Shown: positions 5,683 to 9,807 of the stretch, piece by piece
Layout of the letters: every line of letters starts with the position of its first letter
Numbering within the stretch: position 1 is the stretch's first letter
Source: a virus
IMG/VR virus record: IMGVR_UViG_3300010885_040084
Location: 1 to 30,477 of that record
Strand: one strand, 5' to 3'
DNA length: 30,477 bases
Position numbers and translations under genes: made by a program
Notes under the pieces: generated by a model
The model's database searches: none
What the model was told of the DNA's origin: nothing
Seen by the model: the letters and a program-made list of their open reading frames with translations, nothing else

Positions 5683-6513
5683 TTAGTTGAATAAGTCGTC
5701 GAATTTACTTACTGTATCTTTTTTACCAGTAGCTGCAGTTTCTAAAGTAAAGTCTGTTTTATTACTTCCTAAAGCCTTATCTAAGTTAGTTTCTTCAGTA
5801 AGTGGTGGAGTTACCGGGGCAATTGCTTCCGTAGGTTCAGCTGGTGCTGCTTCTACTTCTCCTGGGTTTAGATATCCTTGTAGTTGCTTTTTAATATACT
5901 CGTAATCAAACTGAGTAAATGTATCTTCTGGGTTTGGTTGTTCTTTTAGCCAAAGATCTACTTTTACATTATCTGCTGATAATGGAGAAGTTTTAGGTTT
6001 AATACGAACAGTTGTTGTTGGATAGGGATTTCCTGGTGTTTGTTCAACTACCATATCATATCCATTCATTACGTCTGTGTAATCTCCGATATCTTCATCT
6101 TCTGCTAAAGCTAATAATGCTTTATAGATATTAGTACCGAATGACCATAACCTAACTCCTTTATCTTCTTCTCCTCTTACAATAACAGGAGCAAATACTC
6201 TAGTCTTTGGAGATAGTTTTCCTGATAATGACCAGTTTTCTTTATCAGAGGTCTTTCTTAATTCTTTTACGAATTCTTCAATTGGATCTTGCTTACCGAA
6301 ATTCGATAAAGCGATCATTGGAAATTTACCGATGTTGTAGTGGAACTTTAATTCCTTGAAAGGAAAGGATGGATCGTAAACGGAAGGTACAATTCTTACG
6401 ATATGTTTTCCATTTGTTGGTCTCCAGAAGATTTTCTCATAATCTACTTTTTCTCTTTCTTGACCGTTGTTGTTCAGTCCAGCCAATTTTGACTTAATTG
6501 CATCTAAATTCAT
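5683..6513 (-). CDS. Single-stranded DNA-binding protein, T4 gp32-like
   Basis: This 276-residue protein would coat single-stranded DNA and organise replication and recombination. It follows the gp32 plan. A short basic N-terminus (residues 1-22) could carry cooperative self-binding, then a core with DYEKIFWRPTNGKHIVRIVPS and the aromatic/basic ENWSLSGKL...RVFAPVIV strands. An extended Pro/Glu/Ala/Thr linker (about 218-240) leads to an acidic tip, KFDDLFN, of the kind that binds partner proteins. T4 gp32 holds a zinc with one His and three Cys, but this protein has no cysteine at all, so the zinc site is lost. It has a long repeat-rich leader that may be an autoregulatory site. Position directly before uvsX supports the call. 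Confidence 0.9.
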   Translation of the reverse strand: MNLDAIKSKLAGLNNNGQEREKVDYEKIFWRPTNGKHIVRIVPSVYDPSFPFKELKFHYNIGKFPMIALSNFGKQDPIEEFVKELRKTSDKENWSLSGKLSPKTRVFAPVIVRGEEDKGVRLWSFGTNIYKALLALAEDEDIGDYTDVMNGYDMVVEQTPGNPYPTTTVRIKPKTSPLSADNVKVDLWLKEQPNPEDTFTQFDYEYIKKQLQGYLNPGEVEAAPAEPTEAIAPVTPPLTEETNLDKALGSNKTDFTLETAATGKKDTVSKFDDLFN

Positions 6514-6524
6514 TTTTTACTTGT

Positions 6525-6600
6525 TTTAATTTAACTTTAATTTAACTTGCTTTTTCTTGCTTAATTTTTCTTGCTCTGTCTTGCTCTTCTTTAATTTAAT
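6525..6600 (-). repeat. Short direct repeats in the gp32 leader
   Basis: Two exact tandem copies of TTTAATTTAAC (plus strand, 6525-6535 and 6536-6546) and a near copy TTTAATTTAAT (6590-6600) bracket four CTTGCT copies (plus strand). The block ends 11 nt before the gp32 ATG. Confidence 0.85.
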
Positions 6601-6685
6601 ATATGAATTCTTTTTGTATTCTACAACTCCTTTCTTTTCTTTTTAAAAATTAATACTCCGTGACTTAACTATATTAGACAAGGAT

Positions 6686-6704
6686 AGCTACCTATGTGGT
6701 AGCT
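6686..6704 (-). other. RNA hairpin in the gp32 leader
   Basis: AGCTACC and GGTAGCT pair perfectly (7 bp) around a 5-nt loop. No U-run follows on the minus strand, so it is not an intrinsic terminator and more likely a leader structure. Confidence 0.65.
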
Positions 6705-6752
6705 TCTCCTATATTCTCTTTATGTTTTTATGTGTTTTTAATAACGTTTTTC

Positions 6753-6778
6753 TTTATTATAAATAGTAACTTTTTACC
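6753..6778 (-). promoter_or_regulatory. Extended promoter-like motif before gp32
   Basis: The minus strand reads GGTAAAAAGTT, then ACTATTTATAATAAA. The first 26 nt match the element at 8029-8054 at 23 positions. It begins right after the stop of the 151-residue gene and would give a leader of over 200 nt to gp32. Confidence 0.55.
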
Positions 6779-6785
6779 GAAAACC

Positions 6786-7241
6786 CTATAATTCTACTAT
6801 ACGATATAGCTTTGTATTTACTCTTTTTAGTTCTGGACCTTTTGTTAATAGTATGCAATTTGCATAATCAGGCCAGTTAATTTTAAAATTTTTATCTAAT
6901 GTTCCTCCATTAAGTGATTCAATTAATCTATTTAAGGAATTGATTGTATAGAGGGTATTTGATTCTTTCTTTCTATGAACTAAGACTGTATTTGGAATAA
7001 AATTTGATACATTATCTAAGTCAACATTATATGTAATTACAAATTCCTCTTGGCTTTTTGCATACAATATAAATATCTTATTGTAAATTATTTTATATCT
7101 GTCTTGAATTGTACTCAAAGTCCCTTCTAGGGTTTCTTCGGTAGAAAAAGTACAGACGAGTTTATTTGACATAGTTAGTAGGTTGTAATCATATTCGATA
7201 TCGTAATCGAATTGTAATGTATTTGTTGCTTCTTGTATCAT
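6786..7241 (-). CDS. Phage protein of unknown function (151 aa)
   Basis: I do not recognise this 151-residue protein. The first half is rich in acidic and aromatic residues (FDYDIEYDYNLLTM) with beta-strand-like stretches, including KIIYNKIFILYAKSQEEFVITYNVDL. The second half holds a helix around NSLNRLIESLNGG, a WPDYANCILLTKG segment, and ends in KRVNTKLYRIVEL. There are no transmembrane segments or signal peptide. It lies between an HNH endonuclease and gp32, in the replication block, so a role in DNA metabolism or its regulation is possible. I cannot name one. Codon use and AT content match the neighbours. The ATG at 7241 is preceded by an A/T-rich GCTATATTTATAA stretch, a variant of the window's promoter-like motif. 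Confidence 0.75.
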   Translation of the reverse strand: MIQEATNTLQFDYDIEYDYNLLTMSNKLVCTFSTEETLEGTLSTIQDRYKIIYNKIFILYAKSQEEFVITYNVDLDNVSNFIPNTVLVHRKKESNTLYTINSLNRLIESLNGGTLDKNFKINWPDYANCILLTKGPELKRVNTKLYRIVEL

Positions 7242-7303: not shown

Positions 7304-7930
7304 TTACAACTCCCTTTGTTTACAGTTTTGAAAATGCCACCTTTTCATAGAATTACCTCCTTGCTTACTGCAGTGTGGACAAATAACTACTGTTTGAGGT
7401 CCATATGGTTTTCTAGGTCCTGATATTGCTTCTCTATGTTCTTTTGTTTTTGGACTTTTCATTTTTTGGATAGTACTACTAGTGTGATGTTTTCCAAACA
7501 TAAAGTGATTCTGACCTGACATTGCTTCTGATCTTTTTTTGTTTGAACTCTCAGATGCTGGTATACCTTTATTCCATGGTGATTTATTATACTGTGGGTT
7601 ATTACTTCCTAGCATCTTTTTTGATTGAATTTTTGAGAATACTTTTTTTGATTCTTCATAAGCTCTACTACTTACTCGGTAATCTCTACCCGGTCCTTTC
7701 TGATTACACATTCCCCAGAACGCTAATACTAATTTCTTATTTTGAGGATATATTCTATACAATAACCAGTGACATATAAAATGCTCCCTTGCTGTTAATT
7801 CTGCTAGGTTTTCTTTTTCATTACTTCCTCCCATGCATTTAGGGATAATATGATGCTTTTCCTTATAACCTTCTAGTTTTCTTTGTTTTGCTCGATCGAT
7901 AATTTGATCGTAAATTTTTTGATAATTCAT
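7304..7930 (-). CDS. HNH homing endonuclease with C-terminal Cys/His finger
   Basis: This 208-residue putative free-standing homing endonuclease lies between the DNA polymerase and an unknown gene. The HNH motif is N-terminal: EKHHIIPKCMGGSNEKENL at about residues 24-42, then AREHFICHWLLY. The middle has NUMOD3-like segments (GSNNPQYNKSPWNKG, GQNHFMFGKHH, SPKTKEHREAISG). The C-terminus carries a candidate zinc finger, CPHCSKQGGNSMKRWHFQNC, with Cys-x2-Cys and a His/Cys pair. The same finger type recurs in the decayed endonuclease at 20685-20861, so the two elements share a DNA-binding module. Its leader contains two hairpins with complementary loops. HNH identity is strong; mobility is inferred. 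Confidence 0.88.
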   Translation of the reverse strand: MNYQKIYDQIIDRAKQRKLEGYKEKHHIIPKCMGGSNEKENLAELTAREHFICHWLLYRIYPQNKKLVLAFWGMCNQKGPGRDYRVSSRAYEESKKVFSKIQSKKMLGSNNPQYNKSPWNKGIPASESSNKKRSEAMSGQNHFMFGKHHTSSTIQKMKSPKTKEHREAISGPRKPYGPQTVVICPHCSKQGGNSMKRWHFQNCKQREL

Positions 7931-8061: not shown

Positions 8062-9387
8062 TTAAAAATCTAATGATTTTCCATATTCTATTTTTGTCGG
8101 ATACCTTCCTTCCGATTCCATTATTCTTTGAATTTCTTCCAACGTTTCTTTTCCATCCTCTTTATTAAAATCAAATATTATTGCATCATAGACATATAGA
8201 GCTATTTTAGTTTTCTTTCCTCGTAAGTACTTTATTAACTGCTCTAATACTCTTATGTTTCTGCTCGTCTCTAAACTTTGCATAAGGTAGTTTAGTAACT
8301 TTTGTGGATGCATATCAGATAAATCCCTTGTAAATCTCTTTCCTGATATCGGATCTTGTATATAGCCTTGTTCTTTAAACTGCTTCCATAGCTGTGTTGT
8401 ATACTTTTCCATTTTTTCAAATACCTCTAGGAAGGCATACTCAGGTGGTATCTTTCCATATATTGCTTGAAAATTAATCTGCTTTGCATTTGCATACTCC
8501 TCCTGTGTTATAACCTCTTTTTTAAAGTAAAGTCTTGCTAACTGGATGTGTGCAGATTCGTCGGTTAGTTCGTATCCTACCTGTTCGCACAATATCCTAA
8601 GATGGTAACCGTCATAATCATATGCAACAAAACAATCATTCTGAGGTATAATTGCTTTTCTAAATTCTTGTGCTTTAGGAATTGCAGCGTAATTCACAGA
8701 ATTAAAAGCATTTGTTGGACGGGAGGTTGTATTATACAGATTATAAGAAGTATATGCTATATTATCTTCCATATTAAATACAGGATTATTTGGTTTAAAT
8801 AAATCCAAGTATGGTTGATAAATTGTTCTTAGTCCGGTATGCTCTATTGCAAAAAATACTGAAGTGGCTATTTTATTGTAGAAATCAAATCCGTTTGGTA
8901 TTGTATATTGTAATATGCAATCTATAGCTTTATAATCCTCTTCACATTTTTCATATAACTTTGAAATTGGAACTAATGCATTTACTTCTTTAAAATCATG
9001 CAATCTATTATAGAACCAGTTATATGTTTGATTATTTTTACCTAATTCTAATCTATCGTAATTAGTCATTGAATAAATTAACGATATATCTAGAACATCC
9101 TTTAATATAAAGTGGTACAGCAATTCTTTCTTATCTAATGTATAAAGTATTTTGTAAGATTTTAACAGCTCGTAGACACGATCTTTATCTACATTAAGTC
9201 CTTCATCATGATTTATTGGAATAATATATCCTTCCTCTTGATTTAATGGCCGAAGATATACTGCTATCGTTTTAGTTAGTATAGGATGGTAGTTATCGTT
9301 TGAGGAGATTACTTTTACGTATCCTCCTTCCTCACTATAACTTTTCAGCATCTCTAATTGCTGATCTGATTCAACGATGTAAAACAT
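8062..9387 (-). CDS. Reduced family A DNA polymerase without evident proofreading or 5' nuclease
   Basis: This 441-residue protein is a PolI-type polymerase, presumably the replicative or a repair enzyme of the phage. TSRPTNAFNSVNYAAIPK (about residues 217-234) corresponds to the template/primer-binding region of family A. Motif A is CFVAYDYDGYHLRI, with the catalytic Asp kept. Motif B is AKQINFQAIYG, with Lys, Phe and Tyr-Gly kept. Motif C is YVYDAIIFDF, with the second catalytic Asp kept. By alignment to E. coli PolI from memory, Glu710 is His, Arg754 is Tyr, and the His-Asp-Glu of motif C is Tyr-Asp-Ala. The first 150 residues look like a shrunken 3'-5' exonuclease fold, but the Asp-x-Glu of motif I is missing. 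The gene follows a strong terminator. Confidence 0.82.
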   Translation of the reverse strand: MFYIVESDQQLEMLKSYSEEGGYVKVISSNDNYHPILTKTIAVYLRPLNQEEGYIIPINHDEGLNVDKDRVYELLKSYKILYTLDKKELLYHFILKDVLDISLIYSMTNYDRLELGKNNQTYNWFYNRLHDFKEVNALVPISKLYEKCEEDYKAIDCILQYTIPNGFDFYNKIATSVFFAIEHTGLRTIYQPYLDLFKPNNPVFNMEDNIAYTSYNLYNTTSRPTNAFNSVNYAAIPKAQEFRKAIIPQNDCFVAYDYDGYHLRILCEQVGYELTDESAHIQLARLYFKKEVITQEEYANAKQINFQAIYGKIPPEYAFLEVFEKMEKYTTQLWKQFKEQGYIQDPISGKRFTRDLSDMHPQKLLNYLMQSLETSRNIRVLEQLIKYLRGKKTKIALYVYDAIIFDFNKEDGKETLEEIQRIMESEGRYPTKIEYGKSLDF

Positions 9388-9413
9388 TTATATAACCTTT
9401 TCTTTAATATACG

Positions 9414-9439
9414 AAAAAAGGCCTGCAAAAGCAAGCCTT
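9414..9439 (-). terminator. Intrinsic terminator ending the structural-gene block
   Basis: The minus strand forms AAGGCTTGC / GCAGGCCTT (9 bp, one G-T pair) around a TTTT loop, followed at once by TTTTTT. It lies 20 nt past the stop of the 115-residue gene and before the polymerase gene. Confidence 0.85.
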
Positions 9440-9459: not shown

Positions 9460-9807
9460 CTAAATATCTTTTACCTGATCTACTGTAAACCCTAACTCTG
9501 TAGCTAGTTGTTCGATTTCCGGAATATCTTCTCCTGAGTATTCTGCTTCAATGGTTATTAAGTTTGCAATCTCTTCAACCTTACTAAAATATTCTTCACC
9601 TTTTAGTTGAGTGATTTTGCTCTTTAATATAGGTTGTTCCTGTTCTGCTTTATCATAACTATTTCCATATCCCTGATCTAAACTATAGTCGTTTGAAATA
9701 TATGCTTGTACTAGTGTTAGTAAATCTTCACTTTCTTCTTTTAGTAGTTTTGAATTAGTAGTTAATTTATTCTCTACTAAGAATTTTTTTAAATTAAAAT
9801 TTTCCAT
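9460..9807 (-). CDS. Small acidic phage protein of unknown function (115 aa)
   Basis: I do not recognise this 115-residue protein. It starts MENFNLKKFLVENKLTTNSKLL, an amphipathic segment, and is then strongly acidic with many Glu (EEYFSKVEEIANLITIEAEYSGEDIPEIEQLATELG). The C-terminal 40 residues look helical and could be a small helical bundle. The short N-terminal segment with LKKFLVEN recalls the N-terminal tags seen on some T4-like head proteins, but the likeness is weak. It is the last gene before the terminator that closes the baseplate block, and has its own promoter-like motif 11 nt before its ATG. It could therefore be expressed apart from the baseplate genes. Confidence 0.75.
   Translation of the reverse strand: MENFNLKKFLVENKLTTNSKLLKEESEDLLTLVQAYISNDYSLDQGYGNSYDKAEQEQPILKSKITQLKGEEYFSKVEEIANLITIEAEYSGEDIPEIEQLATELGFTVDQVKDI

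Follow-up and report, generated by a model that had tools for sequence, protein, structure and literature searches.

The gp32 gene and its surroundings

The window, by which we mean the whole stretch of 30,477 nucleotides of viral DNA analysed here, encodes on its minus strand a gp32-like single-stranded DNA-binding protein (Table 1). Its assignment as a gp32 homologue, which had been made from the bare sequence, is borne out by profile matches to Pfam PF08804 (E 2.1e-11, 44.7 bits against a cut-off of 26.8) and to phrog_1192 (E 7.5e-16). Flavobacterium phage immuto, the closest named phage, has an annotated ssDNA binding protein with which the window protein shares 71% identity; identity to T4 gp32 is 23% in the alignment. 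The locus sits in a replication gene cluster, in which gp32 is followed by UvsX-like, then 5'-nuclease, then DnaB-type genes. The corresponding region of immuto has the order gp32, recombinase, 5'-3' exonuclease and DnaB helicase, and the position of the gp32 promoter is also the same as in the window.

The window protein contains no cysteine and the Cys columns of T4 gp32 are not conserved in the alignment, so that the zinc site formed by one His and three Cys is absent. The N-terminal LAST sequence (KRKST) is also absent, and the group to which the window gp32 belongs begins with M(N/D)(L/I). Because the protein differs from T4 gp32 in having neither the LAST sequence nor the zinc site, cooperativity of the T4 type is not to be assumed for it. 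An AlphaFold2 model reached a mean pLDDT of only 39.7, too poor to use, and a search of solved structures with the protein sequence, aimed at the OB-fold core, gave no informative match.

Two HNH homing endonuclease genes (phrog_655) lie near the window gp32, at 7304-7930 and 305-1111, both on the minus strand. At one related locus (L002) an ORF resembling a GIY-YIG endonuclease (2274-2906) ends right at the gp32 promoter, an arrangement reminiscent of T4, in which segG adjoins gene 32 (PMC535899).

Table 1. Features of the gp32 locus in the window, with the basis of each assignment.
Feature	Position	Strand	Basis or remark
gp32-like single-stranded DNA-binding protein gene, 276 aa	5683..6513	-	PF08804, phrog_1192, immuto match
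Predicted gp32 5' untranslated leader, 78 nt, nearly unstructured	6591..6514	-	-7 element and F. johnsoniae rule; folding
GTTAAATTAAA, downstream tandem copy	6525..6535	-	11 nt before ATG at 6513
GTTAAATTAAA, upstream tandem copy	6536..6546	-	Once in L004, L006, L010; twice in L001, L002, L009
AGCAAG copy 4	6546..6551	-	Repeat and conservation analysis; last G is first base of 11-mer
AGCAAG copy 3	6556..6561	-	Repeat and conservation analysis
AGCAAG copy 2	6570..6575	-	Repeat and conservation analysis
AGCAAG copy 1	6580..6585	-	Repeat and conservation analysis
Near copy TTAAATTAAA	6590-6599	-	Read from sequence
-7 promoter element TATATTAA	6596..6603	-	Fixed place relative to TTG, 79/80 gp32 loci
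-33 promoter element TTG (within GGAGTTGTA)	6624..6626	-	TTG-N20-TATATTA count in window
Conserved box TCACGGAGTATTAATT	6648..6663	-	About -57 to -72 relative to predicted start; flanked by hairpin and promoter
Stable hairpin, 7-bp core (6686-6704) and 4-bp outer helix	6681..6710	-	Folding; outside predicted leader

The promoter and the predicted transcript

A promoter of the form TTG-N20-TATATTAA is found on the minus strand at 6626-6596, between the hairpin and the repeats. In order to evaluate it we fetched 80 related gp32 loci, and a TTG-N(17-22)-TAnnTT promoter lies directly upstream of gp32 in 79 of them, 77 being recognised by an automatic pattern and two (L001 and L009) by eye; the remaining locus, L048, is without the TTG. 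The motif TTG-N20-TATATTA occurs four times in the window against 0.39 expected, three of the four preceding genes, and promoters of the same class stand before about 33 genes of G001, the 156.9-kb relative that carries locus L010. The predicted gp32 promoter resembles the sigma-A signal of Bacteroidota, TTTG / TAHHTTTG at -33 / -7 with the start 4-5 nt downstream (PMC6847099, PMC9723704), except that the final TTTG reads TTAA. According to the rule for F. johnsoniae, in which the T of TAHHTTTG is at -12 (PMC6847099), the -7 element predicts an mRNA start at about 6591. The original prediction had regarded 6514-6704 as one leader, which appears incorrect: the promoter separates the hairpin from the repeats, placing the repeats in the predicted leader and the hairpin outside it, where it would be present only on read-through RNA.

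At 9405-9434 (minus strand) of the window and at several G001 sites, the promoter seems to share part of its sequence with a hairpin of intrinsic-terminator type, the T-run of which enters the -7 element, e.g. GGCTTGCTTTTGCAGGCCTTTTTTCGTATATTA; a strict exact-stem scan gave two such cases in the G001 coding strand.

At 78 nt, the predicted window leader has roughly three times the usual length of about 24 nt. Most of the leaders predicted in G001 have 7-28 nt, with about 24 nt for the other promoter-driven genes and 71 nt for gp32; the four longer calls in that genome are, judging by their sequences, probably chance matches inside upstream coding sequence. For gp32 itself, the predicted leaders measure 19-31 nt in most loci, 44 nt in L013, 59-61 nt in L002 and L003, and 68-80 nt in the five loci with a four-copy GCAAG array (L001, L004, L006, L009 and L010).

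Repeats in the predicted leader

The predicted leader comprises the four AGCAAG copies, the tandem 11-mers and four UUAAA units, and its purine content is 78%. Both repeat patterns had been described correctly beforehand, namely AGCAAG four times at steps of 10, 14 and 10 nt, and the 11-mer in exact tandem with a near copy, ending 11 nt before the start codon. The accompanying claim that the repeats are regularly spaced holds only loosely, the steps varying among relatives between 9-11, 14-15 and 10-11 nt. We rejected a leader peptide reading of the array, as the steps of 10, 14 and 10 nt are out of frame.

Four copies of AGCAAG were reached in none of 5000 dinucleotide shuffles; some 6-mer with at least two G/C reached at least four copies in about 4-5% of the shuffles, and an 11-mer repeat turned up in about 15%. 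On their own the repeats are thus only mildly surprising, and it is their conservation in relatives that marks them as more than chance. When the five loci with the four-copy array are compared pair by pair, the bases at GCAAG positions are the same in 196 of 200 cases (98%), against 168/214 (79%) in the spacers and 65-73% in the flanks (5' flank, 51/79; 3' flank, 217/298), a comparison that is anchored on the motifs and so favours them and that involves related loci, for which reason we take it as evidence and not as a clean test. Four-fold sites of gp32 in the same loci show 63-91% agreement. The comparison of leaders that had been proposed as a check therefore gave GCAAG as better conserved than its surroundings.

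The array is not general among close relatives. L002 and L003 have two GCAAG copies and no hairpin, while L005, L007 and L008, whose gp32 is 84-88% identical, have leaders of 24-31 nt without repeats, as does immuto (about 30 nt, also lacking the hairpin). In the gp32 tree the repeat leaders occupy one region, interspersed with repeat-less relatives, a distribution that may reflect a single gain with losses or separate gains. Clustered GCAAG (three overlapping pairs) occurs in G001 in the gp32 leader only, and 16-mer and gapped scans returned no further gp32 leader with GCAAG. An A-rich match of the GCAAG scan in L224, L233 and their copies was discarded, as it lies within coding sequence of an unrelated phage.

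Folding of the leader and of the upstream hairpin

The predicted 78-nt leader folds at only -1.8 kcal/mol. Considering the stretch from -80, no gene start in the window is less structured than that of gp32 (rank 1 of 26). In G001, where gene starts are approximate and come from a simple ORF caller, the gp32 region from -80 to +20 is the least structured of 201 when minimum free energy is the measure, and takes second place when pairing probability is used. T4 gp32, an established case of autoregulation, served as positive control. Over -60..+10 its start region takes second place of 73 in ensemble energy and so belongs, like that of the window gp32, to the least structured ones of the genome section; over -80..+10, when the pseudoknot region is included, it falls to 22nd of 73. 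The start region of immuto gp32 is unexceptional (energy ranks between 7 and 24 among 87). For both T4 and immuto the ranks refer to the genome sections fetched, and the statements on T4 sequence rest on records L198 and L221, annotated as mutant T4 clone. The folding ranks bear out the earlier proposal that, as in T4, the translation start lies within unpaired A-rich sequence.

The 7-bp hairpin AGCTACC-N5-GGTAGCT was likewise confirmed. It folds at -15 kcal/mol (z -3.4; -5.4 to -6.0 for the folded homologues) and lies upstream of the promoter, 172 nt from the gp32 start codon. Within the collection it is confined to five contigs, each time preceding gp32, and the core stem is invariant in the five loci carrying the four-copy array. 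Covariation analysis of five sequences gave no signal above shuffles, the core stem never varying. An intrinsic terminator was rejected by eye, as no T-run follows the stem. No Rfam family reaches its gathering score in the window, and two matches over 6480-6800 are at chance level. The hairpin might serve in the processing or stability of read-through RNA, or might act at the DNA level as an operator-like site. All five loci carrying it also contain TNACGGAGTAYTAATT and the TCACGGAGTATTAATT box lies where an activator site could be located; the CACGGAG box alone is common, and there was nothing relevant among the matches listed.

Discussion

It is a long-standing question how gp32 distinguishes the mRNA that encodes it from the other single-stranded nucleic acid present, and a review has called for gp32 autocontrol to be studied across diverse T4-related phages (PMC3014915). 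The gene 32 operator of T4 consists of a pseudoknot within about 67 nt of the AUG and an unstructured stretch directly after it (PMC535899, PMC3014915), and both the pseudoknot and the UUAAA/UAAA units are essential for repression (PMC535899). The predicted window leader resembles the operators of T4 and RB69 in that a long unpaired A/U-rich stretch, of more than 40 nt and with UUAAA/UAAA units, precedes gp32 and extends over the translation start, and it may work like T4's operator. The sequence of the leader differs from T4 in its GCAAG copies, as the original prediction held, but not in the TTAAATTAAA units, which are of the same kind as the UUAAA/UAAA repeats of T4. On the other hand, the predicted window leader has no counterpart of the pseudoknot of about 28 nt that immediately precedes the unstructured stretch in T4; since the pseudoknot is a defining feature, the leader should not be filed as a T4-type operator. 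It also differs from T4 in its lattice, about twice as long, in the extra GCAAG repeats and in the lack of a Shine-Dalgarno sequence. The gene 32 leader of RB49 is reportedly without a pseudoknot as well, and the two sources disagree on whether UUAA-type units remain in it (PMC535899, PMC3014915); a GCAAG array is not described for RB49.

We tentatively favour autoregulation of gp32 through the coating of a long unpaired leader without a structured nucleation site. According to this proposal, which is built on sequence comparison and folding, a host-type (Bacteroidota sigma-A-like) promoter belonging to gp32 itself would give rise to an mRNA whose 78-nt leader has hardly any base pairing, and translation would proceed without a Shine-Dalgarno sequence via the A-rich start region. 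Once in excess over the available single-stranded DNA, gp32 would coat the unpaired leader cooperatively and block the entry of the ribosome. The leader could in this way enable gp32 to stop its further production, the properties that count being, as in T4, the length of the lattice and its unstructured state, but minus the pseudoknot that provides T4 with a folded RNA landing site. The GCAAG repeats would probably represent preferred contact points, and the hairpin would be relevant only on read-through transcripts, for example in processing or stability. If autoregulation needs the repeat leader, then L005, L007, L008 and immuto must do without it or achieve it differently. A more specific proposal, that the zinc-free gp32 without LAST sequence recognises the four GCAAG copies by sequence, as a linear operator replacing the pseudoknot in one clade of Flavobacterium-type T4-like phages, seems to us rather unlikely.

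Ranking close behind autoregulation, and possible in our judgement, is a leader that simply provides a strong, Shine-Dalgarno-less translation start for a protein required in quantity, keeping the start codon open by means of its long A-rich unpaired sequence without any feedback by gp32. Bacteroidota do without Shine-Dalgarno sequences and tune initiation by low structure and upstream adenines, A-rich unstructured leaders being the general rule in the Flavobacterium host group (PMC6847099); the Shine-Dalgarno-less leaders of Flavobacterium and its phages share with the window the predicted host-type promoter and the A-rich unstructured start (PMC6847099, PMC9723704), and the leaders of other promoter-driven genes of G001 are also A-rich, e.g. 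AATAATTAAAACAATAAAAGTT. However, leaders of this type are typically about 24-33 nt long and repeat-less, in contrast to the predicted 78 nt with four GCAAG of the window, and the ordinary genes of G001 manage with about 24 nt. Furthermore, the near-invariance of GCAAG, with its G and C, while the A-rich spacers drift is something that lack of structure alone does not need.

That conservation beyond the surroundings would also fit a sequence-specific site for another factor, whether an RNA-binding protein encoded by phage or host, a small RNA, or a protein that binds the DNA shortly after the promoter and acts there. The restriction of the array to one gp32 clade and the spacing of 9-11 nt within pairs, approximately one turn of the DNA helix, point in the same direction. 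Nevertheless, shifts of 1-2 nt in spacing between loci fit poorly with tight helical phasing, a general regulator would have a single target in G001, where no second clustered GCAAG leader exists, and no candidate factor was identified; we therefore consider such a site improbable.

Nucleation of gp32 at the hairpin with spreading across the repeats, the full T4 model that had been put forward originally, has very little likelihood. Its attraction lies in the stability of the hairpin, in the unchanged core stem of the five array loci and in its expected presence on transcripts that read through from upstream genes of the same strand. Yet the hairpin is cut off from the repeats by a conserved promoter and stands far from the AUG, unlike the structured part of T4, a pseudoknot adjoining the lattice (PMC535899); L002 and L003 have GCAAG repeats without such a hairpin, and the pair changes in the hairpin show no covariation above shuffles. 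Least probable of all is a T4-type replication origin, with the transcript of the purine-rich leader kept on the template as an R-loop, for although that leader directly follows a promoter in a replication gene cluster, purine content is at least as high at about 39 places in G001 and the GC skew does not switch at gp32.

The relatives provide a natural test, since the leader has 78 nt and repeats in one virus but is plain and about 24 nt long in others whose gp32 is 84-88% identical. The contributions of lattice length and of sequence repeats would thus be directly separable, and this in a host group not using Shine-Dalgarno sequences.

Other genes of the region

A protein that resembles family A DNA polymerases, with a length of only 441 aa, is encoded at 8062-9387 (minus strand), and the annotation of immuto lists two separate 'DNA polymerase family A' genes, which suggests a split polymerase. 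At 9460-9807 (minus strand), the window encodes a small protein with the N-terminus MENFNLKKFLV(E/V)NKLTTNS, which is common to three small proteins encoded in tandem at 1350-2769 of L004; these proteins possibly represent a putative capsid-targeting-like leader family.
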